NCBI RefSeq assembly: GCF_014230055.1
Contig: NZ_JACHVA010000023.1
Coordinates: 1 to 36,822, forward strand
Direction of reading: 5' to 3'
Length of the DNA stretch: 36,822 nt
From: Puniceicoccus vermicola
GTDB taxonomy: Bacteria > Verrucomicrobiota > Verrucomicrobiia > Opitutales > Puniceicoccaceae
Under the pieces are notes generated by a model that worked only from the letters and a program-made list of their open reading frames with translations, had not been told where the DNA came from and searched no databases. This document shows positions 504-26,048 of the stretch, one piece after another. The translations under genes were made by a program, and so were the position numbers. The number at the start of each line of letters is the position of its first letter. Positions within the stretch are counted from its first letter, which is position 1.

Positions 504-2339
504 CTAATAGCTGAATTCGACCGTCTCACCGGAATCGGTGGTGACGCTCAGAGTTCCGCCCATGGTTACGGTCAGTTGGGTGTAATCTTCGCCATCAACC
601 GGAACGACCGATCTTACGTAGGTTGGCACAATGTCATCGTAGGTGGCTTCGGTTACGCCTTCCTCGAGAATGTATTGCTGGCCTCCAGAGGCGATCTGGC
701 GGAGGTTGTTCATAATCGTTTTCTGCTCGGCTTGGGCGGACATGCTCGAAGGGTAACCATAGCTGTTGCTCTGAGGAAACATGCCCGAAGTTGCGGGAAC
801 GTCTGGAGCCGGTGGATACTGTACCGTCAGTCCGGTGACGGTGGTGACCACGAGTGGTTGATCATCGGCAGTAACGACCAGCTGCGAGTAGTCTTCGCCC
901 GCTACCGAGGGTAGTGGAGAAAAGTATTCGCCGACGATCACGGAATAGGGTGCTTCGGTTACACCGTTTTCCAGCATATACTGCTGGCCGGCCGCACTGA
1001 CTTGTCGGAGATTATTGAGAATGGCTTTTTCCTGGCTGGTGGCCCGTACCTTTTGAAAGGCAGGAACGGCCATCGCAGAGGTCATTCCCACCGCAAAGAC
1101 GACGGGTTGGATTGCGAGTTGAGCCATGGTGGTGCGATGGGAGTAACTCATATTGGAAGCGGTATAGAGACCTTCCGGACCGACCGTAGTGACCGAGGCT
1201 GCCGGATTTGGCATATCGGGAATGAGGAGCTTGATGATATCGAGAAAGGCGGGCTCCATTGCGGGATTACTGTCCATCGAAGAAGTCATCATATCTCGAA
1301 ACGCCTGGGTGTATTCGGGAGTCACGTAGGAGAAAAAGACGCCGTCCGAGGGGAGCTGATTGGCGGCCTTCCGGAAGGCATCGGTGTCTTTCAGCTTATC
1401 CTTGTTCTGCAGACATGCGTCCAAGTAGGTCTGACTGGAGGCAAGAAAGAGCCGTTTGGTTTGCGTATCGGCGACGATCACGGGCTGGATGTAATCGAAT
1501 GGTGCCGGGAACTGCTCTGTGGCGCGCAGCTCGAATCCGTTGTCGGTATCCTTCCATTCAACTTGGGGCTGGCCTTGGAGAGCGGGCTTGAGCGACTCGA
1601 ATAGGTCCGTGACTCCGTCGAGAACAATCAGGGCATCGGTGTGAGGAAGGCTCCCATAGAATCCGAACGGGAGGAGATTCTCGGAGTCGAAATCGAGAAT
1701 GAGGATCCCGCGATTTCCCGAGGCTTCAATGACCTGGTTCACGGTGCGATTACCCATCTCCGGAACGGGAGATTGTAGCCATGCAGCGATCATTCCACGG
1801 CCGAAAGGACCAGCGACTGCGTCCCCAATTCCGAGGATGGTGTCGCGCAAGGTTTCAGGGCGGTAACTCATCTCCATCACGAGATCGGAGGTGGAAGGGG
1901 CCAGATCAAGTGAATCGAAAGGATGGGGGGCATCGCCGAAGAACTGGAAAAAACCGGTGGGACCTTCAGGGAAATAGAGAATCGAGCGGTTGTGGAACAT
2001 CCCGTCTCCAATCTCCCGGGAGCTGAGTCCGATGGCGTCGAGGCCACTGAAGCCAGCTGCGGACAGCATCTTCTCGAAATTGAGTGGAAGTGGGGGAACG
2101 TCAGGCACCTCGCTCTTCACCTTGTTGGCGATCTCGGTCAGGGTCTTGCCCAACTTTTCGGTCTCATGGGTGAGATCCATGTAAGCATAAAAAACTCCAC
2201 CGAGATCCAGAAACTCGGAAACTGCGTCAAACTGCGGAGCCCGATCCTCCTTGGGGAGAAGTCCTGCCGTGTCCTGCTCTTTTGTGCAGGCATTGAGGAT
2301 AAGGAGTACGCAAGCGAAGAAGGGGATAGCTTTTCTCAT
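504..2339 (-). CDS. Lipoprotein with two C-terminal pilin-like modules
   Basis: A 611-residue predicted lipoprotein. The signal peptide ends in a lipobox, LILNAC, with Cys18 as the lipidated residue. Residues about 35-400 have no catalytic motif I recognise; the layout resembles large DUF3352-type surface proteins, but weakly. The C-terminus is distinctive. Residues about 409-508 include a hydrophobic stretch followed by AVPAFQKVR and NNLRQVSAAGQQYMLENGVT. Residues about 535-611 repeat that pattern (NNLRQIASGGQQYILEEGVT, then VDGEDY). Both resemble the helix and head of verrucomicrobial type IV pilin-like proteins; the first also keeps a pilin-like hydrophobic helix, without the GFTLIEL cleavage site. 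This suggests capture and internal duplication of a pilin module. Function is unknown; an envelope location is inferred from the lipobox. The gene is divergent from the VIT-VWA gene at 2703. Confidence 0.85.
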   Translation of the reverse strand: MRKAIPFFACVLLILNACTKEQDTAGLLPKEDRAPQFDAVSEFLDLGGVFYAYMDLTHETEKLGKTLTEIANKVKSEVPDVPPLPLNFEKMLSAAGFSGLDAIGLSSREIGDGMFHNRSILYFPEGPTGFFQFFGDAPHPFDSLDLAPSTSDLVMEMSYRPETLRDTILGIGDAVAGPFGRGMIAAWLQSPVPEMGNRTVNQVIEASGNRGILILDFDSENLLPFGFYGSLPHTDALIVLDGVTDLFESLKPALQGQPQVEWKDTDNGFELRATEQFPAPFDYIQPVIVADTQTKRLFLASSQTYLDACLQNKDKLKDTDAFRKAANQLPSDGVFFSYVTPEYTQAFRDMMTSSMDSNPAMEPAFLDIIKLLIPDMPNPAASVTTVGPEGLYTASNMSYSHRTTMAQLAIQPVVFAVGMTSAMAVPAFQKVRATSQEKAILNNLRQVSAAGQQYMLENGVTEAPYSVIVGEYFSPLPSVAGEDYSQLVVTADDQPLVVTTVTGLTVQYPPAPDVPATSGMFPQSNSYGYPSSMSAQAEQKTIMNNLRQIASGGQQYILEEGVTEATYDDIVPTYVRSVVPVDGEDYTQLTVTMGGTLSVTTDSGETVEFSY

Positions 2340-2702
2340 CAGAGGAGATGCTTCGTGTTGGTGAGGCGGGAGGCAACTCTAAATGGGCCAATCCGAGTCG
2401 GAATCGGTTAACAAAAGCGTGACGGGTTTTGGAACGAAACGATCCTATTTTGCCCGGTCTTCTGGGAGCGCAGCGCTTCCGCCTGCGGGCGGTAGCAAAG
2501 GAAAATACCGAAAACGCAGGCTTCCGACTTTCGCCAAGGCTTCTGCAGACATAAAAGCACCGCGCGTCCCTGAACCCCTCCGTGGCTTTCTCAAAGAATG
2601 GCTGTAATTGCCTGGCGAAGTCCCTCGGGTTACCCCGGAATCGGAGAGAATTCATCGTCTTTCCACAAGACCTCCACATTCCCTCCATCTGGATCTTGAA
2701 GA
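2340..2702. other. Intergenic region between divergent genes
   Basis: 363 bp separating the lipoprotein gene (-) from the VIT-VWA gene (+), so promoters for both should lie here. I see no clear sigma-70 boxes. A small GC hairpin CCGCC-TGCG-GGCGG lies at 2479-2492. The nearby stretch reading TTTCGCCAAGGCTTCTGCAGAC (about 2528-2549) looks like a dispersed repeat remnant seen in environmental genomes, though no second copy occurs in this window. No supported gene was seen. Confidence 0.4.
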
Positions 2703-4727
2703 ATGAGGGAGATGAAAACCAAAAACATTCTTATCCTTCTCTCTGCAGGCTTCGGTGGGCTTCTCCTCATGGGTTCCGCGCGAGCGAACTCCCCTGGGGA
2801 GTCTTCTACAGACCGCACCGAAGTGCCCTATTTTTGGACGCCTTCGATGAAGGAAGGAGTTGATGCGTTGCCGCTTAAATCGACCGATGTTCAAGTGAAG
2901 ATCGAGGGGATGTTGGCCACGGTCACGGTGAGTCAGGTCTACCGCAATGAAGGAACGGTCCCGATTGAGGCGTCCTACATTTTTCCGGGATCGACGCGGG
3001 CTGCGGTGAACGATCTCCGTTTTACGATTGGAGAACGGGTGATTTCCGCGGAGATCCAGGAAAAGGAGGAGGCTCGTCGCACCTATGAAGCCGCGAAAAC
3101 CGAGGGCAAGCGAACCGTTCTCCTCGAGCAGCACCGTCCGAACGTGTTTCAGATGAAGGTTGCCAACATCCTTCCCGCCGATGTGGTTTCGGTGCAGCTA
3201 GTCTATACCGAAACGTTACCCCGTGAGAACGGGGACTACGAGTTTGTCTATCCCACGGTGGTCGGTCCGCGCTATGTCGGAGACCCGGAAGCACAGGCAG
3301 GAAACTCAACGGAATGGGTGCACTCTCCCTTTCTCTCACCGGAGACCGAGGTTGCGGCCCCAGAGTTCCGCTTGTCGGTCGATCTGACTCCTGGCCAGAC
3401 GATCCGAAGAATCGGCTCTCCAAGCCACAAGGTGGACATCGATTATCGGGAGGCGGACCATGCTGTTCTCGAGCTGACCCCCGCACCCCTGCGATCGGAT
3501 GATCGAGACTTTATCCTCCGTTACTCGTTGGCTGATGAGGAACCGGAAGTGGGGATTCTGCTGACGAAAACTGAGGACGGCGGCTACTTCCTCGTCAATC
3601 TGGAGCCACCTGCACGCCAGGCTTCGGGGGTGGCAATGCCGCGCGAATATTTGTTCTTGCTCGATGTTTCGGGTTCGATGGAAGGGTTTCCTCTCACCAT
3701 CGCAAAGCAAGTAATGGGCGGACTGATCGAGGATCTGGGATCTGGCGACTCTTTCAATATCGTCGCATTTGCCGGAAGTTCCGAAGTGTTCTCCGAGAGG
3801 GTTTCTGCAAAAGTGAGTCCTTCTTCGAAACAGAGGGCCTTGGAATGGATCGATGGGCTTAGCGGCATGGGAGGGACCAACCTGCTTCCAGCCCTTAAGA
3901 GGGTCTTACAGCTGCCGCGGGATGAGGGCACTTCTCGAACGGTCGTTGTCATCACGGATGGATACGTGGTTGTGGAGCGGGAGGCGTTTGAACTCATCCG
4001 GAACTCGCTCGGGGAAGCCAATCTCTTCGCCCTTGGCATTGGTTCCTCAGTGAATCGGCATTTGATTGAGGGAATGGCCCGAGCGGGAGGCGGCGATGAG
4101 TTTGTCGCGACCAATATTCGAGAAGGAAAGGAGGTCGGTGCTCAATTGATCAAAATGGTGCGGAATCCGGTGCTGACTCAGATCTCATTGGATTGGGAAG
4201 GCTTGGAGGTAAAAGAAATGCTTCCGGAGCGGCAACCGGACCTCTTTCTGGATAAGCCGGTTCGAGTTATCGGTCGCTTCGAAGGTGAGTGGGGCGGTCG
4301 CCTGACTGTAACTGGGAAAGCGGGCTCTGACGACTTTGAGCAAACCGTCGAACTCGGTAATGGAAACCAACCTTCCGTGGGTTCGATCGGGATTCTGTGG
4401 GCGCGGGAAAAAGTTCAGGCTCTGACGGATTCACTGCTCTTCGGGGACGAAGGATCGGTCCGAAGCCAGATTGTTGAGCTGGGTCTGCGCTACCGGCTGC
4501 TTACTCGCTACACATCTTTTGTTGCGGTAGAAGAGGTCATTGCCCGGCAGGAAGAGGATCTGGCTACGGTTAAGCAACCCGTTCCGCTTCCCGCTGGAGT
4601 GAGCTCTCTCGCGGTCGGGGCCGGTATCCCCGCTTCACCCGAGCCCGAAACCGTAGGATTAGTCCTATTGGTATTGGGAGCGCTGGCGGTATTGTTCTGG
4701 AGTTCCCGCAAGAAGGATGCGCAATGA
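2703..4727 (+). CDS. VIT and VWA domain protein with PEP-CTERM-like sorting tail
   Basis: A 674-residue secreted protein. It has a signal peptide (about 1-28, ending ARA), a VIT (inter-alpha-trypsin) domain at about 42-173, and a von Willebrand factor A domain at about 314-485. The MIDAS metal site is complete (DVSGS at 321-325, Thr392 in GGTN, Asp419 in TDG). Near the C-terminus, LGLRYRLLTRYTSFVAVEE is typical of VIT-VWA sortase-target families. The tail has PEP (646-648), a hydrophobic segment (651-667) and a basic end (RKK), the layout of an exosortase sorting signal. The gene overlaps the exosortase gene by 4 bp (ATGA), so they are probably translationally coupled and this protein is the likely dedicated substrate. 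VIT-VWA partners are known for sortase and XrtN-type exosortase systems. The start could instead be Met4 (2712). A role in adhesion or surface assembly is inferred. Confidence 0.9.
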   Translation: MREMKTKNILILLSAGFGGLLLMGSARANSPGESSTDRTEVPYFWTPSMKEGVDALPLKSTDVQVKIEGMLATVTVSQVYRNEGTVPIEASYIFPGSTRAAVNDLRFTIGERVISAEIQEKEEARRTYEAAKTEGKRTVLLEQHRPNVFQMKVANILPADVVSVQLVYTETLPRENGDYEFVYPTVVGPRYVGDPEAQAGNSTEWVHSPFLSPETEVAAPEFRLSVDLTPGQTIRRIGSPSHKVDIDYREADHAVLELTPAPLRSDDRDFILRYSLADEEPEVGILLTKTEDGGYFLVNLEPPARQASGVAMPREYLFLLDVSGSMEGFPLTIAKQVMGGLIEDLGSGDSFNIVAFAGSSEVFSERVSAKVSPSSKQRALEWIDGLSGMGGTNLLPALKRVLQLPRDEGTSRTVVVITDGYVVVEREAFELIRNSLGEANLFALGIGSSVNRHLIEGMARAGGGDEFVATNIREGKEVGAQLIKMVRNPVLTQISLDWEGLEVKEMLPERQPDLFLDKPVRVIGRFEGEWGGRLTVTGKAGSDDFEQTVELGNGNQPSVGSIGILWAREKVQALTDSLLFGDEGSVRSQIVELGLRYRLLTRYTSFVAVEEVIARQEEDLATVKQPVPLPAGVSSLAVGAGIPASPEPETVGLVLLVLGALAVLFWSSRKKDAQ

Positions 4728-6052
4728 GGAGACAGATTCCCTGGGGGAGTCTCCTGTTTCTCTTAGCGTTGTTGACTCTCAGCCTGCCGTCCGCCCGCTG
4801 GTATGTTGCGCGCATGCTGGACGGTGCGGACGAGCCCTACGGGATTCTCGCCCTCGGAGTGTGGTTGTGGTTTCTTCCCTGGAAACGTTTTCGGCGGGAT
4901 TTCGTCGCGAATACATTTCCAAGTGGGGTGGAGGCTCTGCTGTGGATTCTGGTGATTGCGATCATCCTCTTCGGCCCGGAGTGGCCAGCACTCCTTCGGG
5001 CGGCCCTGCTCGTTGGGATGATTTCGACGTCCGCGATTATCCGGGGTATGCCTCGGGGAGCGGTCGTTCTGGGCTTTCTCAGTCTCCCGATTCTCGCTAG
5101 CCTCGACTTCTACCTCGGCTTTCCCATGCGTTATGCATGTGGCTGGGTGGGAACTGAGGGTCTTCGGGCCGTCGGGGTCCCCGTATCCTTGAGTGGGATC
5201 CGCATGTTGGTCGAGGGGCATGAGATTGTCATCGATCGTCCCTGCAGTGGACTGAAGTATCTGTGGTTCGGTTGGTTCTTTGCCGGATGCCTCATGGCCC
5301 AATATCGATTAGCGGCCCAGCGGGTACTGGTTGGCTCCTTGTTGTCAGGCCTGATCCTTTTCCTTTCCAATGCTTTGAGGGTCACGGTTCTCTTTCTTCT
5401 CGAATGGCGCGGTTGGGGGAGCGCCAGAAGCCATGAGATTGCCGGTCTGATTCTGTTCGGGGCGGCGCTATTCGGAATCTTTCTGGCAATTCGCGGGATT
5501 GCGCGGGGAGGGGAACCGAAGTTCGAACAAGAATGGTTCTTGGGTCGGGGGACATTCGTTTCACCATTTGTTTGGATCTTCGTGTTCGGCGTGATTGGAG
5601 CGACATATGGAGCCCCTTTCCTCCAAAAGGAGGACGCGTCGAACGCCCGATTGGCTAAGGTTGAGCAGATTGCCATTCCCTCCGAGTTTGGCGGTCTCGT
5701 CTTGGACCGGGCGTTTCAAGAGGGTGGGTTGCAGGCTCAGCTCTATCACAGTCAGGAAGGAATGGTTCTGATCCGTGAGATTCGCCGGCCGACCCGCCGC
5801 TTGCATTCTGCCGAGGATTGTTTTCGCGGAGACGGATGGAAGATCGAAACGGCACCGCTCTGGAAAGACCCCTATGAAAGGAATTGGCGGCGGTTTTATG
5901 CGTCGCGCGATGGCTCCCGCCTGGAGGTGCGTCAGAGGATCGAGGGGAGCGATGGCTGGACTGGAACCGATATCTCCGAGTGGTTCTGGAATGCGACCAC
6001 CGGACGAACGAAAGGGCCTTGGAAAGCGTGGGTCGTCGTTCTCGAGGCATAG
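4724..6052 (+). CDS. Exosortase fused to EpsI-like C-terminal domain
   Basis: A 442-residue inner-membrane protein with many hydrophobic segments up to about residue 300. The exosortase/archaeosortase catalytic set is visible in order: Cys174 in PCSGLK, Arg219 in SNALRV, and His237 in SHEIAG. These transpeptidase-like enzymes cut PEP-CTERM signals and transfer the protein to an envelope anchor. After a last transmembrane segment (about 281-298), residues about 310-442 form an extracytoplasmic domain with HSAEDCFRGDGW (361-372). That matches the HxxExCxxxxGW pattern of EpsI/exosortase-associated domains. Such fusions are known. The likely substrates in this window are the upstream VIT-VWA protein and the PEP-CTERM protein at 22762. 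The downstream polysaccharide genes fit the usual link between exosortases and exopolysaccharide production. I did not assign an Xrt subfamily. Confidence 0.92.
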   Translation: MRRQIPWGSLLFLLALLTLSLPSARWYVARMLDGADEPYGILALGVWLWFLPWKRFRRDFVANTFPSGVEALLWILVIAIILFGPEWPALLRAALLVGMISTSAIIRGMPRGAVVLGFLSLPILASLDFYLGFPMRYACGWVGTEGLRAVGVPVSLSGIRMLVEGHEIVIDRPCSGLKYLWFGWFFAGCLMAQYRLAAQRVLVGSLLSGLILFLSNALRVTVLFLLEWRGWGSARSHEIAGLILFGAALFGIFLAIRGIARGGEPKFEQEWFLGRGTFVSPFVWIFVFGVIGATYGAPFLQKEDASNARLAKVEQIAIPSEFGGLVLDRAFQEGGLQAQLYHSQEGMVLIREIRRPTRRLHSAEDCFRGDGWKIETAPLWKDPYERNWRRFYASRDGSRLEVRQRIEGSDGWTGTDISEWFWNATTGRTKGPWKAWVVVLEA

Positions 6053-6270
6053 GAGGAGCATTCAGGTCACGGCACGAGGAGCGGGTAAGGTCCTTAGCTC
6101 CACATTTTGAATTCGGAACAGGGTTGATTTCTGAGAGAATTGGAGATGATCTTTATTCAGCTCTGAACTGCTCCGCCAGCGTGACGAATCTCTGAAAGTT
6201 CTGATTCATTACGTTAAAACCTTGTAAAATTCAGGGCTATTCATTCCGCTATCCCTTCTGAGCTCTTTCC

Positions 6271-8556
6271 ATGGTTTCTCGACTTTTCACCCGGATCACG
6301 ATTCTCGTCGCAATTCCAACTTTGTTTGCGATCGGGTATGTCGTGTCTGGACAAGAAAATGACCCGGCGCTTTTGATTCGTGCCCGGGAACTGCGCTTGA
6401 ACGAAGTGTATTTGGAGAGTGCGCGGGTCTATCGGGCATACTTGGCGGAGTATCCGGATGATCTTGAGGCACGGCTCGAGTTTGGAGAACTACTGGTGCT
6501 ACTGGATCAGCCAGTCGATGCGGCGAATCAGGTGATTCCGATCCTCAATGAGGAGCCCGACAACGCCGAGGCGCGTGAGATATTTGACCAGAGTCTGGTG
6601 AAGATCGAAGAGGATCTCGATCCCACAAATTCTGTAGGGTTGCTCCAAATCGCTCGATTGAAACGGTTTTCGGGGAACGAAGAGGAATCGCAAGAATACT
6701 ACATTCGTTATCTTCAGGCGGTGCCTGAGGACTCGCTCGCTTTACATGAGCTTGCGCAGATGGTCTATGATTCCGGCGATCACGAGCGTGGCCAGGCGCT
6801 CCTCGTTGAAGCCATTCGGAAGGCACCCGACGACGAAACCCGCAAGGAACTCCTCTTGAAACAGGCGACCTGGCTTTCGTATGACGAGGAAACGCAGGAC
6901 GAGGCGGTGATAGCCTTTCAGGATCTTCTGGTCGAATACCCGGATATGGCTCAGGCCTATCTGAATCTGGGAGATCTTTATCGTTACCGAGGCGATTACG
7001 AAGAGGCCGGCGAAGCCTACTTGAAGGCCATTCAATATGGAGGCGCTAGCGAAAGAGCGACCGAGGGATATTTTCAGGTTTTGCTTCAGACACGCGCGTT
7101 GCAGACGGCACGGAAAGAAAAAATAGCCGGGAACTACGAGGAGGCGGTTACCTTCTATGAGCTTCATTTCCAGGAAATGGAACTTACCCGACAAAAATTG
7201 GCACAAATCCAAGCCTTGGAAGCCCAAGGGGTCGCAACCGAGAATCAGGTGATGGCGGCTGACTTTTTCGAGCGTTTTCTGGCCGAGACTCCTGATGAAG
7301 TCACGATCCGCCTCGAGGCCGCCGATTCCTATGCTCAAATCGGAGAAACCGAGCAAGCAATGGAAGAGACTGAGCGGGCTATCGAGTTGAAGCCCGACGA
7401 CCGTGAGATTCGCTTGCAGCTAGCGCGTTATCAGACCTATGACTCCGATTCCGTGGTTGAGGCGGGCGAAACCCTCGACGCGGTAGCCGAAATTTTTGGA
7501 CCCGATGCCGAAGTGTCCACATTGCGAGGCGATGTTTACCGTTTCGAAGGGGATTACGTTGAAGCGAGCGCGGCCTATCGACGGGCTTTGGAGGAGAATC
7601 CCAATGATCCTGTGGCACTTCAAGGTCTTGAGGAAATTAAGAATGCCTTTTCTCCTGAGTTTTACGGAGGCCTTGGATTTATTCGCGATTGGTCCTCGGA
7701 TTTTGATCACTTTTTCTTGGGGCTTGGGCTTCGGAATGTCTTTTCGGGCATTCAGCATCGAGTCGACTTGGAAGTAGACGCGCTCTACTACAATCAACCG
7801 GTTTCTACCCAGAATCCCGAGTTGTCGAACAACACGAACAGCGTTGCGGGTACGGATGTTATGGTGTCGGTGAGTGGCCCCATCGAACGCCCGTGGTCCT
7901 ATCTTCTCTCGCTGGGAGCCAATTTCTACAACAAGGTGGATTGGACCCCCGTCGGTCAGTTGGCACTCGGTTACGCCGGTGATCAAGTAAATGCGGTCTT
8001 CGGATTTCGTCGGAAGGAGGCCGTAGACGACCATTACAATTTGAGTGCGCTTCTGGATGAAGTGCGCATGAACGACTTTTTCGGGCAGGTCATTTATCAG
8101 ACGATTGGAGACGAAGTCTGGGAGCGTTGGCAGGTTGAGGGCTACGGGGAGACTGGATGGTTTTCCGACGATAATTATCGCTCGCGAGGCTTGTTGACCT
8201 TGATGAACCGCACCTATGAGTCGGCAGAGGATTCCTTGAAGCTTGGGGTTCGTGGCCTTTATACCAATTACAGATTTCAGTCTCTGAATTACTTTTCGCC
8301 GTCCGATTATTACGGGATTGGCCTCACTGGGAGACTTGATCACCATTTTAACGAAGATACCGATGGGGGAGTCTCCGCGTCTGCCATCTGGATCGAGCAG
8401 GTCGAAGAGTTTGATATCGCCGTAGGCGGATACCTATATCACCAGATTTCCGATTCGGCTCGTGGTAGCCTCCGGCTGGACTACGGCCAATCGACATTTC
8501 AACAGGGAGACATCCGGTCAATCAGCGGTCGCGCCGAAGTGGAGATCCTGTTCTAA
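6271..8556 (+). CDS. TPR-repeat outer-membrane porin, PgaA-like polysaccharide exporter
   Basis: A 761-residue protein with an N-terminal signal peptide (about 1-28), then many tetratricopeptide repeats over residues about 30-460 (for example PDMAQAYLNLGDLYRYRGDY and PDDEIR-type helices). The last roughly 295 residues are rich in alternating aromatic and polar residues and end in EVEILF. A terminal Phe is the usual beta-barrel assembly signal. TPR plus C-terminal barrel is the architecture of PgaA/HmsH, PelB and BcsC, which guide a synthase-made polysaccharide through the outer membrane. The length is close to PgaA. The GT2 synthase starts 5 bp downstream, supporting an export role. A 218-bp gap separates this gene from the exosortase, so it may start its own transcript; TTGTAAAAT at 6223-6231 could be part of a promoter, but this is weak. 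Confidence 0.85.
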   Translation: MVSRLFTRITILVAIPTLFAIGYVVSGQENDPALLIRARELRLNEVYLESARVYRAYLAEYPDDLEARLEFGELLVLLDQPVDAANQVIPILNEEPDNAEAREIFDQSLVKIEEDLDPTNSVGLLQIARLKRFSGNEEESQEYYIRYLQAVPEDSLALHELAQMVYDSGDHERGQALLVEAIRKAPDDETRKELLLKQATWLSYDEETQDEAVIAFQDLLVEYPDMAQAYLNLGDLYRYRGDYEEAGEAYLKAIQYGGASERATEGYFQVLLQTRALQTARKEKIAGNYEEAVTFYELHFQEMELTRQKLAQIQALEAQGVATENQVMAADFFERFLAETPDEVTIRLEAADSYAQIGETEQAMEETERAIELKPDDREIRLQLARYQTYDSDSVVEAGETLDAVAEIFGPDAEVSTLRGDVYRFEGDYVEASAAYRRALEENPNDPVALQGLEEIKNAFSPEFYGGLGFIRDWSSDFDHFFLGLGLRNVFSGIQHRVDLEVDALYYNQPVSTQNPELSNNTNSVAGTDVMVSVSGPIERPWSYLLSLGANFYNKVDWTPVGQLALGYAGDQVNAVFGFRRKEAVDDHYNLSALLDEVRMNDFFGQVIYQTIGDEVWERWQVEGYGETGWFSDDNYRSRGLLTLMNRTYESAEDSLKLGVRGLYTNYRFQSLNYFSPSDYYGIGLTGRLDHHFNEDTDGGVSASAIWIEQVEEFDIAVGGYLYHQISDSARGSLRLDYGQSTFQQGDIRSISGRAEVEILF

Positions 8557-8561
8557 AAACC

Positions 8562-9926
8562 ATGAAGTCTTGGTTTATTCGTCTCTCCTTACTGCTGGCC
8601 ATACTGCTCTTCATGGCGGTAGCTGGGCTGGCGGTGTGGCTGCTTATTGAGCGCACCGATCATACGGTCTCGAAGTGGTTGGCTACGGCCGCTTTCAGCT
8701 TCGTTATTATTTTCGTGTCCGTGTTGATCTTGCGGGTGCTGTTTTTCGCTTTTTTTGCGATGGTTCACCTCTTTGTTTATCGGCGCGGTCTGGCCTCCGA
8801 TGACAAGAGTCCGCGTTGGGAGGGTCGAAACCAGCCGAAGGTTTCCATCATCGTACCAGCCTATAATGAAGAAAAGGTGATTGCCGAAGCGATCCGTTCC
8901 CATTTGCGGATGGATTATTCCTCCTTTGAAATTGTCGTGGTAGACGATGGCTCGACAGATAAAACCACGGAAATGGCCCAGCAAGTTGCCGATGAGGACG
9001 CGGCCGGCCGGGTTCAGGTGCACAAGATACCCAATGGCGGAAAAGGGAATGCCTTGAACTATGGCATCCGGGTCGCCAAATCTGAGTTTCTACTTTGTGT
9101 GGATGCCGACAGTCGTCTGGATCCCGATTCGCTGAACTATGCGGTGCGGCATATGAAAGATCCCCGCGTCGCGGCCGTTGCGGGGAACGTGAAAGTGCTG
9201 AACCGGCACAAAATTCTCACCAATCTCCAAGCCCTCGAGTACATCATCGGGCAGAATCTGATGCGGCGTATTCAGGGCCTCTTCCGTTGTGTCGGTATTG
9301 TCCCCGGGCCGTTTGGTCTCTTCCGGAGGAGTGCGATTGAGCAGGTAGGATTATACACCGACGATACCTTCGCGGAGGATTGTGACTTGAGTCTTCGTCT
9401 CCTCGCTTCGGGCTGGCGCATCGTCGACGAAATCAACTCCGTGGTCAGGACGGAGGCCCCTGAGAAGCTCAAGCCCTTTATCAAACAGCGCTACCGTTGG
9501 ACACGAGGGGTTTTACAGGCGCTGCGTAAGCATAAGCATGGATTCACGGGGCGGGGTGGCATCCGACTCTGGTTTGTGCTTATCAATATGTTTTTCGACG
9601 GCGTGATTTGGCCGGTCGCTAACCTCTTGGCACACGCCTGCGTCTTTTATCTAATCCTTGAGTTCGGTCTCGTGACCTATCTGGTCTTTTGGTGGATCCA
9701 CTTTACGCTCTTGGATATGGGCTTGGCTCTGGTTTGTATTGCCAGCGAGCGAGAGACCGCCCGCTTGGTCATTCACATTCTTTTCTACCGCTTGTTTTTC
9801 CTCGTGATCATGGATGTTTGTAAGCTCCTCTCGTCCTTTGAGGAGGTTTTCCAGATCAAAATGGGCTGGGGTAAACTCGAACGCACCGGTTCGGGTGGCA
9901 ACACCAAGGAGGTTCCCGTATCATGA
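8562..9926 (+). CDS. Membrane GT2 polysaccharide synthase, PgaC/IcaA-like
   Basis: A 454-residue processive family-2 glycosyltransferase. Two N-terminal transmembrane segments (about 6-29 and 40-72) precede a cytoplasmic GT-A domain. Motifs in order: SIIVPAYNEE (95-104), VDDGS (127-131), DAD (181-183), FAEDCDLS (270-277, the TED-type base), and QRYRW (309-313), the acceptor-binding signature of processive synthases. Three or four more transmembrane segments follow (about 335-430). This set matches PgaC/IcaA/HmsR, which make poly-beta-1,6-N-acetylglucosamine, and related hyaluronan and cellulose synthases. No PilZ domain is seen. The sugar substrate cannot be read from sequence. The stop overlaps the start of the next small gene by 4 bp (ATGA), indicating translational coupling. 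Confidence 0.9.
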   Translation: MKSWFIRLSLLLAILLFMAVAGLAVWLLIERTDHTVSKWLATAAFSFVIIFVSVLILRVLFFAFFAMVHLFVYRRGLASDDKSPRWEGRNQPKVSIIVPAYNEEKVIAEAIRSHLRMDYSSFEIVVVDDGSTDKTTEMAQQVADEDAAGRVQVHKIPNGGKGNALNYGIRVAKSEFLLCVDADSRLDPDSLNYAVRHMKDPRVAAVAGNVKVLNRHKILTNLQALEYIIGQNLMRRIQGLFRCVGIVPGPFGLFRRSAIEQVGLYTDDTFAEDCDLSLRLLASGWRIVDEINSVVRTEAPEKLKPFIKQRYRWTRGVLQALRKHKHGFTGRGGIRLWFVLINMFFDGVIWPVANLLAHACVFYLILEFGLVTYLVFWWIHFTLLDMGLALVCIASERETARLVIHILFYRLFFLVIMDVCKLLSSFEEVFQIKMGWGKLERTGSGGNTKEVPVS

Positions 9927-10078
9927 TTCCTTTCGAACTACGTGATTTCATCAACATCATGTCGCTGATTATTTTCGGCGGCGTCGCAGTTTCCTGTGTC
10001 TTCGCGGTCTTCGCCTACTTTTTGGCGATCAACCGCAAGAAACGGCAGAAGAGAATCGAGGAGAAAAAGGCAGCTTAA
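9923..10078 (+). CDS. 51-residue single-pass membrane protein, candidate synthase partner
   Basis: A short gene starting inside the stop of the glycosyltransferase (ATGA overlap) and ending 2 bp before the next start codon. The product is 51 residues: a short N-terminus, one strong transmembrane segment at about 13-35, and a highly basic tail (NRKKRQKRIEEKK), predicting a cytoplasmic C-terminus. Its tight placement and full open frame between two real genes argue that it is translated. Its position is that of PgaD/IcaD, small membrane partners needed by PgaC/IcaA. Those proteins are larger with two membrane segments, so this is a positional analogue, not a shown homologue. Confidence 0.75.
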   Translation: MIPFELRDFINIMSLIIFGGVAVSCVFAVFAYFLAINRKKRQKRIEEKKAA

Positions 10079-10080
10079 CG

Positions 10081-11895
10081 ATGACGGCCCCTCGGCGCAC
10101 ATCGGATTTGATACCGTCTCAGGCGGGTTTCAAAGGCACGTTTCTGGCTGGGATTCTGATCCTGGGCTTTTGCGTATGGAACTACTGGTACCTTATCCTC
10201 GAAACGAATGATCGAGTCCCTACCGATCTAGAGGTCGTGATTCCCCAGCTCGCCGAAGTCCAGCTTTACGAGAATGAAATTCGCGTGGGGGTATACGATT
10301 CGGCGGCCACACGAATGCACTACCGCCAGATGCGCTTCGACTACGGAAGTGTGCTGAGCTCATGGAAGGATTTTCTGGAGAATATGGGGCTCGCCTATGA
10401 CCCCTTTCTCAAGATCGAGAACATCAGCGATTACGATATTGTGATCTTGCCCTTCACCGCCTGCCTTAGCGATTACGAAGCACGGGTGATCAAGGAGTAT
10501 GTCGGCAATGGTGGCCGATTGTTCATGACGGGAACGGTGGGATCCCGATTCGAGGATGGCGATTGGCGGGATGAGCCGGTTTTCGGAGATATTGTCGGTG
10601 CCCGTTTTGTGGGAAACGCGAATCCGAGCCCCAAAGGTCCAGCCCGCCTTTCTCTCAATCGCGATCTTCCGGTTTCCTTGCGTTGGACCCCTCGGCGAAG
10701 TCTCGTGATCCCGTCTTACAACGAGGTGCTGGTCATTCGTCCAATTGGAAGCCGAATGAATATCGTGGCCAAAGCTCCGTATTATCGGAGGGACGAGACC
10801 TATGACGAACTGGTGGCAATCTGTTACGGGCCCTATCTGAAAGGTGAAATCGTCTGGTCCGGTGTGCGAATCGCTGCGGCCCCAAGTGGCGATGAAACGG
10901 CTGAAAGAGCTTTCCGTGAGCTTTTTGTGAACATGATGGTCTGGCTTGCAGATCGACCGCGCGTAACGACTTCTACATGGCCGGAGAAAAAGAAAGGTGC
11001 GCTGGGTCTTGTCGTCGAGTTTCCAGAGAAATCACCACTGCGGCTGTTGTCTAAAATTCAGAAAACCGAGCAGCCGATTGGGGTGTTGGTGAGTCCACAA
11101 CAAGCGAATCAGCTTGTTGACCTCCCGGGGGTAGATCAGCTGGATGTTGAGTGGATCCTTCATCTCGATCCTGCATTTCTGAAGTCCAATGAATTTGAAG
11201 AAATGGGGGCAAAACTGAGATCGTTAAAAGCCCGGGTGGAAAAGACCCTGAATACAACCTTGTCTGGGGTCATGGTCGACGGAATGCGGCCACGTGATAT
11301 GGCTTCCATCGCTCTCGACGCAGGTTTCGTCTACCTTCTCTCGCCGCCGACTGATGGCATTGAGGAGTATCCGGAAATTTTTGCCTCGGTCCGTAGGAAG
11401 GGCCCCTTCGAAGCTCCTGAAGTCCTTTCACTGGCGCCATTCCGAGAGAAGCTCCCCGAACAAATCTCCCCGACCGACTGTTTCTTTGTCGTCTTGCCTG
11501 CAGAGGATTTTCTGGAGCTGAAAACGCCCCTAAAGTTCACGGGGCTCGATGATCAGAAGGAGCTGTGGAAAGCCTTCCCGAGGGAAATTGTCAACTGGCG
11601 CTCCGATCGGAATTCAGTGGTTATGGATGAAGAATTTCTTCCGAACGACCGTCTCCGGCTCCGGATCAGTAACGGTTCCTATACCGAATTTCACCAGTTC
11701 CCTTTCTCCATCGGATTCGGTGGTTCCATTGAAAAGGTTCTCATCTGGCCGAAGGCGGTGGGCCAACCTCCGCCCGATTTGGTTTCGAAGAAAAACGGAG
11801 ATTGGCATTTCAGTATCGACCGCTTCCGGCCGGGAATGACCCTGGAGTTCATCTTTACGCCTTTGAAGGAAGGGGAGACTCCCTCGAATTTCTAA
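10081..11895 (+). CDS. Membrane-anchored protein with GATase1-like and degenerate NodB-like regions
   Basis: A 604-residue protein anchored by one transmembrane segment (about 20-40), with the rest probably periplasmic. Residues about 65-290 resemble a class-I glutamine amidotransferase-like fold of the non-enzymatic type: DYDIVILPFTACLSDYEARVI followed by GNGGRLFMTG (143-152). Residues about 297-430 resemble the polysaccharide deacetylase (NodB) barrel: a strand GALGLVVEF, then GVMVDGMRPRDM and a helix-strand ALDAGFVYLLSP. The acidic TFDDG-type motif and the metal-binding HxxxH are not recognisable, so any deacetylase activity is doubtful. The gene starts 2 bp after the small membrane gene. 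In pga-type loci this place is filled by the deacetylase/lyase PgaB, so a periplasmic polysaccharide-handling role is inferred. The fold calls rest on short patterns only. Confidence 0.7.
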   Translation: MTAPRRTSDLIPSQAGFKGTFLAGILILGFCVWNYWYLILETNDRVPTDLEVVIPQLAEVQLYENEIRVGVYDSAATRMHYRQMRFDYGSVLSSWKDFLENMGLAYDPFLKIENISDYDIVILPFTACLSDYEARVIKEYVGNGGRLFMTGTVGSRFEDGDWRDEPVFGDIVGARFVGNANPSPKGPARLSLNRDLPVSLRWTPRRSLVIPSYNEVLVIRPIGSRMNIVAKAPYYRRDETYDELVAICYGPYLKGEIVWSGVRIAAAPSGDETAERAFRELFVNMMVWLADRPRVTTSTWPEKKKGALGLVVEFPEKSPLRLLSKIQKTEQPIGVLVSPQQANQLVDLPGVDQLDVEWILHLDPAFLKSNEFEEMGAKLRSLKARVEKTLNTTLSGVMVDGMRPRDMASIALDAGFVYLLSPPTDGIEEYPEIFASVRRKGPFEAPEVLSLAPFREKLPEQISPTDCFFVVLPAEDFLELKTPLKFTGLDDQKELWKAFPREIVNWRSDRNSVVMDEEFLPNDRLRLRISNGSYTEFHQFPFSIGFGGSIEKVLIWPKAVGQPPPDLVSKKNGDWHFSIDRFRPGMTLEFIFTPLKEGETPSNF

Positions 11896-11903
11896 TCGGG
11901 TAT

Positions 11904-13053
11904 AGAGTTTCCGTGTTGAAGTGAGTCTGCCGGCGAAAGGGGTGCGTTTTGTTAATCGAGAGCTGGAAGCTCTCGCTACTTTGTTTGGCAGCGTTCTGGT
12001 TGTTTCCGGGCGATTGCGGGCCGAGGGGCGGTTCTCAAATGTTCCGGATCGACTTTAGTCGTTCCGCCGAGTCGGCCGAGAACGGTGTGAGATCTTAAAG
12101 AGTTTCCGCGTTGAAGTGAGTCTTTCCTCGGATGGGGTGCGTTTTGTCCGAAGCGGGCGTTTTGATAATCGAGAGCTGGAAGCTCTCGCTACTTTGTTTG
12201 GCAGCGTTCTCGTTGTTTCCGGGCGATTGCGGGCAGAGGGGCGGTTCTCAAATGTTCCGGATCGACTTTAGTCGTTCCGCCGTGTCGGCCGAGAATGGTG
12301 TGAAGCTTTATCGAGTTTTCGTGTTGAAGTGAGTCTGTCGGCGGAAGGGGTGCGAGTTGTCCGAAACGAGCGTTTTGGTAATCGAGAGCTGGAAGCTCTC
12401 GCTACTTTTTTTGACAGCGTTCTTGTTGTTTCCGGGCGATTGCGGGCAGAGGGGCGGTTCTCAAACGTTCCGGATCGACTTTAGTCGTTCCGCCGAGTCG
12501 GCCGAAAACGGTGTGAGATCTTAAAGAGTTTCCGCGTTGAAGTGAGTCTGTCGGCGGAAGGGGTGCGCGTTGTCCGAAACGAGCGTTTTGGTAATCGAGA
12601 GCTGGAAGCTCTCGCTACTTTGTTTGGCAGTGTTCTGGTTGTTTCCGGGCGATTGCGGGCCGGGGGGCGGTTCTCAAACGTTCCGGATCGACTTTAGTCG
12701 TTCCGCTGAGAACGGTGTGAGGTTTTATCGAGTTTCCGTGTTGAAGTGAGTTTGTCAAAGGATCGGGTGCGTGTTGTCCGAAGCGGGCGTTCTGGAAATC
12801 GAGAGCTGGAAGCTCTCGCTACTTTGTTTGGCAGCGTTCTGGTTGTTTCCGGGCGATTGCGGGCCGAGGGGCGGTTCTCAAGCGTTCCGGATCGACTTTA
12901 GTCGTTCCGCCGAGTCGGCCGAGAACGGTGTGAGATCTTAAAGAGTTTTCGTGTTGAAGTGAGTCTTTCCTCGGATGGGGTGCGTGTTGTCCGAAGCGGG
13001 CGTTTTGATAATCGAGAGCTGGAAGCTCTCGCTACTTTGTTTGACATCGTTCT
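11904..13053. repeat. Six-copy tandem array, 213-bp unit, with two hairpins per unit
   Basis: Units start at 11904, 12099, 12312, 12525, 12729 and 12942, giving unit lengths of 195, 213, 213, 204 and 213 bp; the last unit is partial. The first unit lacks about 18 bp, and the fifth-unit boundary reflects a 9-bp loss next to GTTCCG. Each unit holds the palindrome GAGAGCTGGAAGCTCTC (starts 11958, 12171, 12384, 12597, 12801, 13014) followed by GCTACTTTG or close variants. All but the partial sixth also hold a second hairpin, CGACT-TT-AGTCG, within GTTCCGGATCGACTTTAGTCG. Stops interrupt every unit, so it is not coding. It fills the gap between the polysaccharide locus and the end of mutS; no other feature was seen to 13146. 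Confidence 0.95.
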
Positions 13054-13146
13054 CCCGGTACCGTGCAGCTTCAGCAAACGTTCGCTGCCTCACAGAGATC
13101 GGTTACTCGATCCCAGTCCAAGCTCCGCCTCGGGAATAGACCCGCT

Positions 13147-22189: not shown

Positions 22190-22525
22190 CGCAATCAGAG
22201 AAACCGCATGCTCTTGGCGTCAACTGGGCGCGGAGAGGTCGCGGAAGTTCGAGCTAGGGATTTCCGATCCTGAAATCGAGAGCTGGAAGCTCTCGCTACT
22301 TTGGTTTGGTCGGTATTTTTATATTTTTGGGGCTATCGCGCGACGGGGACGGTGCTTCGCAATCAGAGAAACCGCATGCTCTTGGCGTCAACTCGGCGCG
22401 GAGAGGTCGCGGAGTTCTAGCTAGGGATTTCCGATTCGAAAATCGAGAGCTGGAAGCTCTCGCTACTTTGGGTTGGGCGATATTTATATATTTTCTGGGC
22501 TATCGCGCGACGGGGCGGCGCGAAA
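22190..22525. repeat. 168-bp direct repeat, two copies
   Basis: Copies start at 22190 and 22358 (CGCAATCAGAGAAACCGCAT in both) and run about 168 bp each. Both carry GAGAGCTGGAAGCTCTC (22278-22294 and 22445-22461) followed by GCTACTTTG, and end with GGCTATCGCGCGACGGGG. A decayed version of the GTTCCGGATCGACT hairpin follows at about 22527-22550. The body of the unit differs from the 213-bp and 159-bp arrays; only the palindromes are shared. The rest of 22551-22700 shows nothing recognisable. Confidence 0.9.
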
Positions 22526-25825: not shown

Positions 25826-26048
25826 GAGAGCTTCCAGCTCTCTTCCGTCAGCCGGGAAAACGGAGAGAGAATCTCCTCCCGTCGGTTGAAATGTATCGTC
25901 GCAAAAGTTCGGTGAGTCAGTGTGGAAGCGTTGCTTCAGCGCCCCCATTGCGTGTTTTCGGGTCCGCACCCCAAAAAACTCCCGGAATCCCAGGACCGCG
26001 CAGCTAAAGCTGAGCGGCTACTTCTTGTAGGGGAGTAGCTTTAGCTGC
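25826..26048. repeat. Intergenic hairpin elements
   Basis: GAGAGCTTCCAGCTCTC at 25826-25842 is a copy of the dispersed palindrome. A perfect 12-bp inverted repeat, GCAGCTAAAGCT (26000-26011) and AGCTTTAGCTGC (26037-26048), has a 25-bp loop; its arm resembles the GGCAGCTAAAGCAGCC motif in the 159-bp array. GCTTCAGCGCCC at 25933-25944 recurs at about 34304. The gap between the terminator and the helicase gene (25787-26148) holds no gene. Confidence 0.8.

Follow-up and report, generated by a model that had tools for sequence, protein, structure and literature searches.

Exosortase (EpsH) genes, which go with PEP-CTERM substrates, usually lie near exopolysaccharide genes (PMC1569441, available part). 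NCBIfam already names two GT2 enzymes as 'XrtG-associated' and 'XrtP-associated glycosyltransferase', and VIT-domain proteins stand beside exosortases in the MSEP-CTERM (TIGR04286)/XrtN (TIGR04477) systems. The marine proteobacterial dedicated sortase system, whose target is TIGR03788, uses LPXTG and sortase. Export of poly-N-acetylglucosamine (PNAG) by PgaABCD involves a TPR-barrel exporter and a GT2 synthase, and Gram-negative PgaB joins a deacetylase and a glycoside hydrolase (GH) domain (PMC7112194, available part). The published site of the regulator CreB, the cre/blr tag, is TTCACN6TTCAC (PMC4689548, available part). Here, these systems were compared with a locus of six genes in Puniceicoccus vermicola that encodes a VIT-VWA protein, an exosortase and a polysaccharide export block. 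The window, that is the whole stretch of 36,822 nucleotides analysed, is the complete contig C23 (NZ_JACHVA010000023.1) of genome G000, which comprises 5.2 Mb in 143 contigs.

Overall, the six genes probably form two independent surface modules that became neighbours and stayed together in the genus, namely a CreB-switched pair of VIT-VWA protein and exosortase, and an export block with a pseudo-deacetylase. All six open reading frames (ORFs) were present on one strand (Table 1), with the coordinates, overlaps and spacings given by an earlier reading of the sequence alone (the sequence-only reading). The VIT and exosortase ORFs overlap by 4 bp, the TPR and GT2 genes are 5 bp apart, the GT2 ORF overlaps the small gene by 4 bp and 2 bp separate the small gene from the last gene. 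Gene content and the union of the two halves had also been described correctly, and the families were verified with Pfam and NCBIfam at curated cut-offs (matches listed down to E ≤ 1), with Pfam scores above cut-off for VIT (112 bits), VWA_3 (82), GT2 (125), Glyco_hydro_42M (30) and several TPRs. For the VIT gene, the ATG at 2712, with AGGGAG just upstream, appeared the more likely start compared to 2703. The genus was represented by three species, and the six-gene order was kept in both of the others (G001 and G002), where the five larger genes showed protein identities of 52-87% to the window and the 51-residue gene was also present. No complete six-gene set was found in 32 other relatives searched, which gave weak partial matches only (the last gene in two genomes, the exosortase in one).

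The neighbourhood comparison that the sequence-only reading had proposed showed that pair and block are not conserved together outside the genus. The class was sampled evenly, with 286 genomes taken from a larger group, and a profile search of these (E ≤ 1e-8) detected the exosortase in 18; in 15 of the 18 the pair occurred without the block. These 15 loci were all fetched as stretches of 11-20 kb, some of which were shortened by contig ends (less than 1 kb upstream in L093, about 4 kb downstream in L095). In every one, the exosortase directly followed a gene for a VIT-VWA protein of the family found in the window, scoring 553-713 bits, and the stretches contained no match (E ≤ 1e-3) to the TPR, GT2, small or GATase1/NodB proteins. 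In three further genomes from the phylum, the block was found with no pair beside it. In addition, 15 loci of other lineages found through their GT2 gene (Kiritimatiellae, Proteobacteria, Campylobacterota and one further bacterium; several shortened) contained no VIT or exosortase match.

The window exosortase matched Exosortase_EpsH with 75.7 bits (Pfam cut-off 25.7). Its Cys, Arg and His, which we take to be the active site, were kept in all 16 aligned exosortase cores (those of L101 and L107 stood outside the alignment). All 18 VIT protein tails had a PEP motif, a hydrophobic stretch and basic residues; the tail in the window scored 22.6 bits in the genome scan (cut-off 20.7) and 16.7 bits, below cut-off, in the Pfam scan of the window proteins. 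The exosortase had earlier been called an exosortase-EpsI fusion. The exosortase part was upheld, but the EpsI part was not by model, as no EpsI match was found in Pfam or NCBIfam at E ≤ 1. The label derives from the fused layout, from a DUF3485 match of 13.4 bits, below cut-off, in one of four split homologues scanned, and from a weak XrtT C-terminal match. A C-terminal extension is also known from EpsI fusions (PMC1569441, available part), and in several pair loci the EpsI-like part is encoded by a separate gene.

The pair thus shares its family, the kept residues and a PEP-CTERM substrate with the PEP-CTERM/exosortase systems, but it has one adjacent VIT-VWA substrate and its nearest model, XrtQ (NF012182), scored 116.7 bits, below the cut-off of 270. 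With the marine sortase system it shares a related VIT-VWA protein (422.9 bits against TIGR03788, below the cut-off of 551.65) and, in several relatives of the pair, a two-component system next door; however, the protein here has a PEP-CTERM tail and an exosortase, and the relatives' regulators score as CreB/CreC and not as TIGR03785/TIGR03787. The MSEP-CTERM/XrtN systems also place a VIT-domain protein beside an exosortase, but they use another VIT family and a short exosortase. The juxtaposition of an exosortase with a Pga-like synthase had been called unusual; given the usual exopolysaccharide neighbours and the GT2 precedents in NCBIfam, it is less odd than that. The word 'exosortase' was not found in the literature matches listed for exosortase with pgaC or synthase, and no published work joining exosortase with 'VIT domain' was found in a literature search, which did list three that mention exosortase with 'von Willebrand'.

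Genome G000 had three exosortase matches besides this one, and its PEP-CTERM matches numbered 46, of which 32 were above cut-off. A second exosortase-VIT pair on its contig C118 (L035, 8339-11746) consists of an XrtN/XrtK-like exosortase and an MSEP-CTERM protein (244 bits, cut-off 150), and the same arrangement was seen in G002 (L182, 4392-7837). Two further exosortase genes lie on C53 (L033, 8930-9829) and C40 (L034, 8960-10018). The neighbours scanned included a dehydrogenase E1, MreB and an efflux protein on C53 and a glycogen/starch-synthase type gene on C40, and no GT2 exopolysaccharide gene was found among these few neighbours.

A tandem array of four degenerate cre/blr-tag-like units was found upstream of the VIT gene (Table 1). 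Strict three-unit matches in G000 numbered four, two of them overlapping at the window array, compared to none for the reversed pattern. Across the 18 pair genomes there were 86 strict matches vs two for the reversed pattern, with overlapping matches within one array counted repeatedly; G308 had none, and the two in G001 sit away from its VIT gene. For 15 of the 18 loci, the best four-unit TTCAC array on either strand was the one at the VIT start, and three-unit scoring gave the same fraction with two ties included. The best four-unit array in L098 precedes creB of the same gene run, and in L100 it was tied between VIT and creD. In L093, L099, L101 and L105 the array lies just inside the called VIT ORF, whose start seems too far upstream. 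Several relatives carry exact tag units, compared to the degenerate units of the window.

CreC was encoded directly upstream of VIT in five of the 15 outside loci, four of which also had CreB. In a sixth locus, L100, CreB/CreC lay about 4 kb upstream and CreD downstream of the pair. Among the genes submitted to NCBIfam, CreC scored above cut-off in 5/5 kinases, CreB in 3/3 and CreD in 1/1, the regulator pair of L105 and the regulator of L099 being left out of this test; two kinase-like genes of L107, at 93 and 31 bits, were excluded from the CreC count. CreC was above cut-off in all 15 pair genomes searched (of 18; the three of the genus included) vs one of 14 control genomes. In G000 it was encoded on C134, with an adjoining CreB-like gene that scored 275 bits against a local profile. 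Further arrays stand before creB in G180 and G175 and before creD in G113, and these link the tag to CreB. An array was likewise found 22 bp before the exosortase of the MSEP-CTERM-type pair in G000 and G002.

The VIT-exosortase pair therefore looks, by its upstream arrays and neighbours, like a member of the CreBC regulon, with a tandem TTCACN6TTCAC-type tag and CreB, CreC or CreD neighbours in some relatives. It differs from the CreBC/BlrAB-CreD regulon as described, whose named members in the available part of the source are creD and cbrABC, with exosortase pairs not mentioned among those. A literature search found no published use of 'CreBC' together with 'cre-tag'. The sequence-only reading had the gene content of the pair right and missed both the array and the CreBC links. 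As a side observation, a cre-tag array in L150 (1501-1538; G284, C11) precedes another protein, at least 489 residues long, beside a CreC-like kinase gene, which implies that other regulon members are to be found. The CreBC genes of Escherichia coli are induced by peptidoglycan damage, and the Pseudomonas aeruginosa system is tied to loss of penicillin-binding protein 4 and to biofilm growth (PMC3599342, PMC5402928, available parts).

For the export block, structure prediction supported the barrel claimed earlier for the TPR protein. Residues 455-761 of the model aligned to PgaA (4y25) with Z 23.2 over 268 residues and a root-mean-square deviation of 2.5 (next in rank were PelBC and BcsC entries, Z 21), in a low-confidence model (mean predicted local distance difference test score, pLDDT, only 62.7); the Pfam PgaA_barrel match was 13.6 bits, below the cut-off of 27. 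The GT2 protein had PgaC/IcaA as best NCBIfam match (218 bits), below the PgaC cut-off of 422.3. The 51-residue protein had no PgaD match in Pfam or NCBIfam, and of 18 loci examined, all but L016 and L127 had a small ORF between the GT2 and last genes that encodes a single strongly hydrophobic segment. The block had been said to mirror PgaA-PgaC-PgaD-PgaB. The barrel and the GT2 synthase bore this out, but a small protein with one hydrophobic segment stands in place of a recognisable PgaD and the fourth protein is not PgaB-like. A true pgaABCD-type PNAG operon beside an exosortase, which the PgaA-type barrel, the best GT2 match and the A-C-D-B order of roles would fit, is accordingly very improbable, since the GT2 falls below the PgaC cut-off, no PgaD was matched, and the fourth protein combines a GATase1-like domain with the loss of the deacetylase positions and gave no GH match; this explanation was dropped.

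The last protein comprises a membrane helix, a GATase1-like domain (65-292), a polysaccharide-deacetylase-type domain (303-512) and a beta-rich end, and its model (mean pLDDT 72.5) gave predicted GATase1-like and NodB-like folds at Z 15-20. No NodB model match was found in Pfam or NCBIfam at E ≤ 1, and the NodB-like domain was seen through alignment to relatives and fold. In an alignment of 18 sequences, the Asp, the His-x3-His and the final His were kept in 11/11 sequences from Campylobacterota and Proteobacteria, and the same positions were lost in 7/7 sequences from the phylum, the Kiritimatiellae locus included. The window and both congeners were among those that lost them, judged against intact relatives of the same protein; one His survives in two of the three genus sequences, and traces of further motifs remain (GFLPP in L128). 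With no GH domain matched in Pfam or NCBIfam at E ≤ 1, the key deacetylase positions lost and a GATase1-like domain present, the proposed equivalence to PgaB failed. In layout, the protein is closer to Agd3 (CBM87-CE18) and its bacterial homologues than to PgaB: a GATase1-like domain, then a deacetylase-type domain and a beta-rich end. Its fold neighbours include 3RHT (Z 15.5) and 4JQS (Z 15.9), the structures named closest to the carbohydrate-binding domain of Agd3 (PMC7229062, available part). It differs from Agd3 in the lost deacetylase positions and in its companions, with no GH114 match among the six genes. Agd3 itself was outside the fold and sequence matches listed, and neither Agd3 nor PgaB was among the fold matches listed, most of which one domain fills. 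Given the lost positions and the predicted folds, the last protein is best read as a glycan-binding scaffold that would have lost deacetylase activity.

In the class survey of the last protein (286 genomes, up to four candidates scored per genome), 185 genomes had some match at E ≤ 1e-3, and among the matches listed only the three genus members were full-length, the others covering one domain or part of the model. In the phylum, 17 of 387 genomes had matches at E ≤ 1e-15, and full-length matches beyond the genus were found in G388, G314 and G412, with a partial one at a contig end in G434. The order TPR, GT2, small gene and last gene was found in G388 and G412, and G314 has an extra 1007-residue gene between TPR and GT2; the small-gene scores in the three blocks were weak (13-15 bits). 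No VIT or exosortase match (E ≤ 1e-2) was found beside these blocks, with only 0.5, 4.3 and 4.6 kb available upstream. The gene downstream of GT2 aligned with the last protein of the window in 12 of the 15 other-lineage loci, and when four downstream genes and the upstream TPR genes of two loci were scanned with Pfam, both TPR genes matched TPR. In a proteobacterial metagenome-assembled genome, a BcsE-domain gene (219 bits; L018, 6925-8685) was found upstream of the GT2 block, which may point to cyclic di-GMP control of the block in other lineages.

The gap between the exosortase and TPR genes measures 218, 151 and 123 bp in the three species and carries the 16-bp element GTTAAAACCTTGTAAA. Its 14 invariant positions compare with at most 11 in 200 first-order resamples of the gaps, and when one mismatch is allowed, each of the three genomes has a single copy, always in the gap (the reversed pattern matched once in G000 but nowhere in G001 or G002). 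The loose form TTAAANNCTTGTAA matched outside its own locus in L030 only among the other block loci, and the few AT-rich matches of the element at up to two mismatches in L023, L028 and L030 were not accepted. On the reverse strand the element reads TTTAC-N6-TTAAC, two mismatches from the cre tag, a level at which the background is 0.41 per kb and strand. A weak terminator-like stem of five pairs (6220-6236) overlaps it. No sigma-70 promoter-like site was found in the gap, and 2300-12200 contained three vs 4.4 expected. Since the gap carries its own conserved element, separate control of the two halves is suggested.

This possible separate control bears on the dedicated matrix system put forward in the sequence-only reading, a single functional unit in which the exported polymer would have the sorted VIT protein attached to it or be organised by that protein. 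We regard such a unit as rather unlikely, as each half was found without the other elsewhere and the block seems to have its own control. In its favour, the six genes stand in order in 3/3 species that share little further gene order, and PEP-CTERM systems are generally tied to exopolysaccharide (PMC1569441, available part). In addition, only this exosortase of G000 was seen beside a membrane GT2 synthase and exporter; with few genes scanned around each, the other three had metabolic and regulatory genes, an efflux protein, VWA proteins or unnamed genes nearby. Beyond the six genes, the window shares a 611-residue gene with G002 on one side and MutS and a hydrolase with G001 on the other, and one additional gene in common with it (E ≤ 1e-15) was found in the adjoining sequence, 40 kb in G001 and 20 kb in G002. 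The union was seen in this genus only, the modules occur alone elsewhere and their upstream elements are separate, all of which would also suit a neutral neighbourhood in which the modules became neighbours once in the genus ancestor and do not work together. That alternative is possible though doubtful, as the congeners share window neighbours on one side only and little beyond, yet the junction is kept in all three. As the junction was kept while little other gene order is shared, joint working is favoured but not proven, and a joint matrix function of pair and block is plausible but unproven.

Several points weigh against a CreB-switched pair kept beside the block. CreBC has also been described as a growth-condition sensor (PMC3599342, available part). 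The array of the genus is more degenerate than in most relatives; that of the window (15/20) is not the best four-unit array of its locus, where another place scores 16/20, and that of G001 misses the strict three-unit pattern. CreBC is not adjacent to the pair in the genus, no strict array was found in the creBC stretches fetched from it, a CreBC neighbour was absent in 9 of the 15 other pair loci, and the CreC count comes from genomes with the pair. With other exosortases and many PEP-CTERM proteins in G000, the VIT protein and its exosortase are not necessarily exclusive partners. A single ancestral event may lie behind the union in all three species, so that it counts as one observation, and each congener also shares one or more neighbouring genes with the window on one side.

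Table 1. Positions of the six genes and two conserved upstream elements in the window
Feature	Position	Strand	Basis or remark
Tandem cre/blr-tag-like array, four degenerate units 11 bp apart (TTCAT TCCAC TCCAC TCCAT)	2651..2688	+	Upstream of VIT gene
VIT-VWA surface protein with PEP-CTERM tail	2703..4727	+	Pfam/NCBIfam; probable start 2712
Exosortase with EpsI-like C-terminal domain	4724..6052	+	Cys174, Arg219, His237 kept
16-bp element GTTAAAACCTTGTAAA	6213..6228	+	42 bp before TPR start; gap comparison, three species
TPR protein with predicted PgaA-type outer-membrane barrel (residues 455-761)	6271..8556	+	Pfam, structure model
Membrane GT2 polysaccharide synthase, PgaC/IcaA-like, QRYRW	8562..9926	+	Pfam/NCBIfam
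51-residue protein, one hydrophobic segment, position conserved	9923..10078	+	Locus comparison
Membrane-anchored GATase1-like and NodB-like protein, key deacetylase positions lost	10081..11895	+	Alignment, fold

An interspersed repeat with the core AGAGCTGGAAGCTCTC was present in the window in 12 copies vs 0 expected, at 1-399, 11901-13086, 22279-22294, 22446-22461 and 25826-25841. Tandem arrays of it, 159 and about 213 bp long, lie on both sides of the six-gene locus.

Under the two-module explanation, CreB would probably switch the pair on through the tandem array, that is, by envelope-stress-linked cues; its binding there is what we infer from the array and the CreBC links. The VIT-VWA protein would be exported through its signal peptide and held by its PEP-CTERM tail until the neighbouring exosortase cuts and transfers it. 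The GT2 synthase and its partner with one transmembrane segment would make the chain and pass the polymer, the identity of which we also infer, through the inner membrane; the anchored GATase1-like/pseudo-deacetylase protein would bind and guide it without deacetylating it, and the TPR-barrel protein would let it out of the cell, where contact with the sorted protein may follow. More tentatively, and at somewhat less than an even chance, CreBC may control whole exosortase-substrate systems across the class, as both VIT-exosortase pairs in G000 and G002 have cre-tag-like arrays, and in this genus the main pair may have been joined to an exporter with a dead deacetylase to give a stress-induced layer of sorted protein and unmodified polymer. 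The novelty is a combination to test and not a new type of machine, both halves occurring separately elsewhere.

The purpose of exosortase systems and the timing of their use are poorly known, and a conserved regulator-site array before a pair of one enzyme and one substrate offers a direct handle on the sorting of one protein. Finally, the loss of the deacetylase positions in 7/7 phylum sequences suggests that, in this phylum, the binding role of the last protein matters more than its chemistry.

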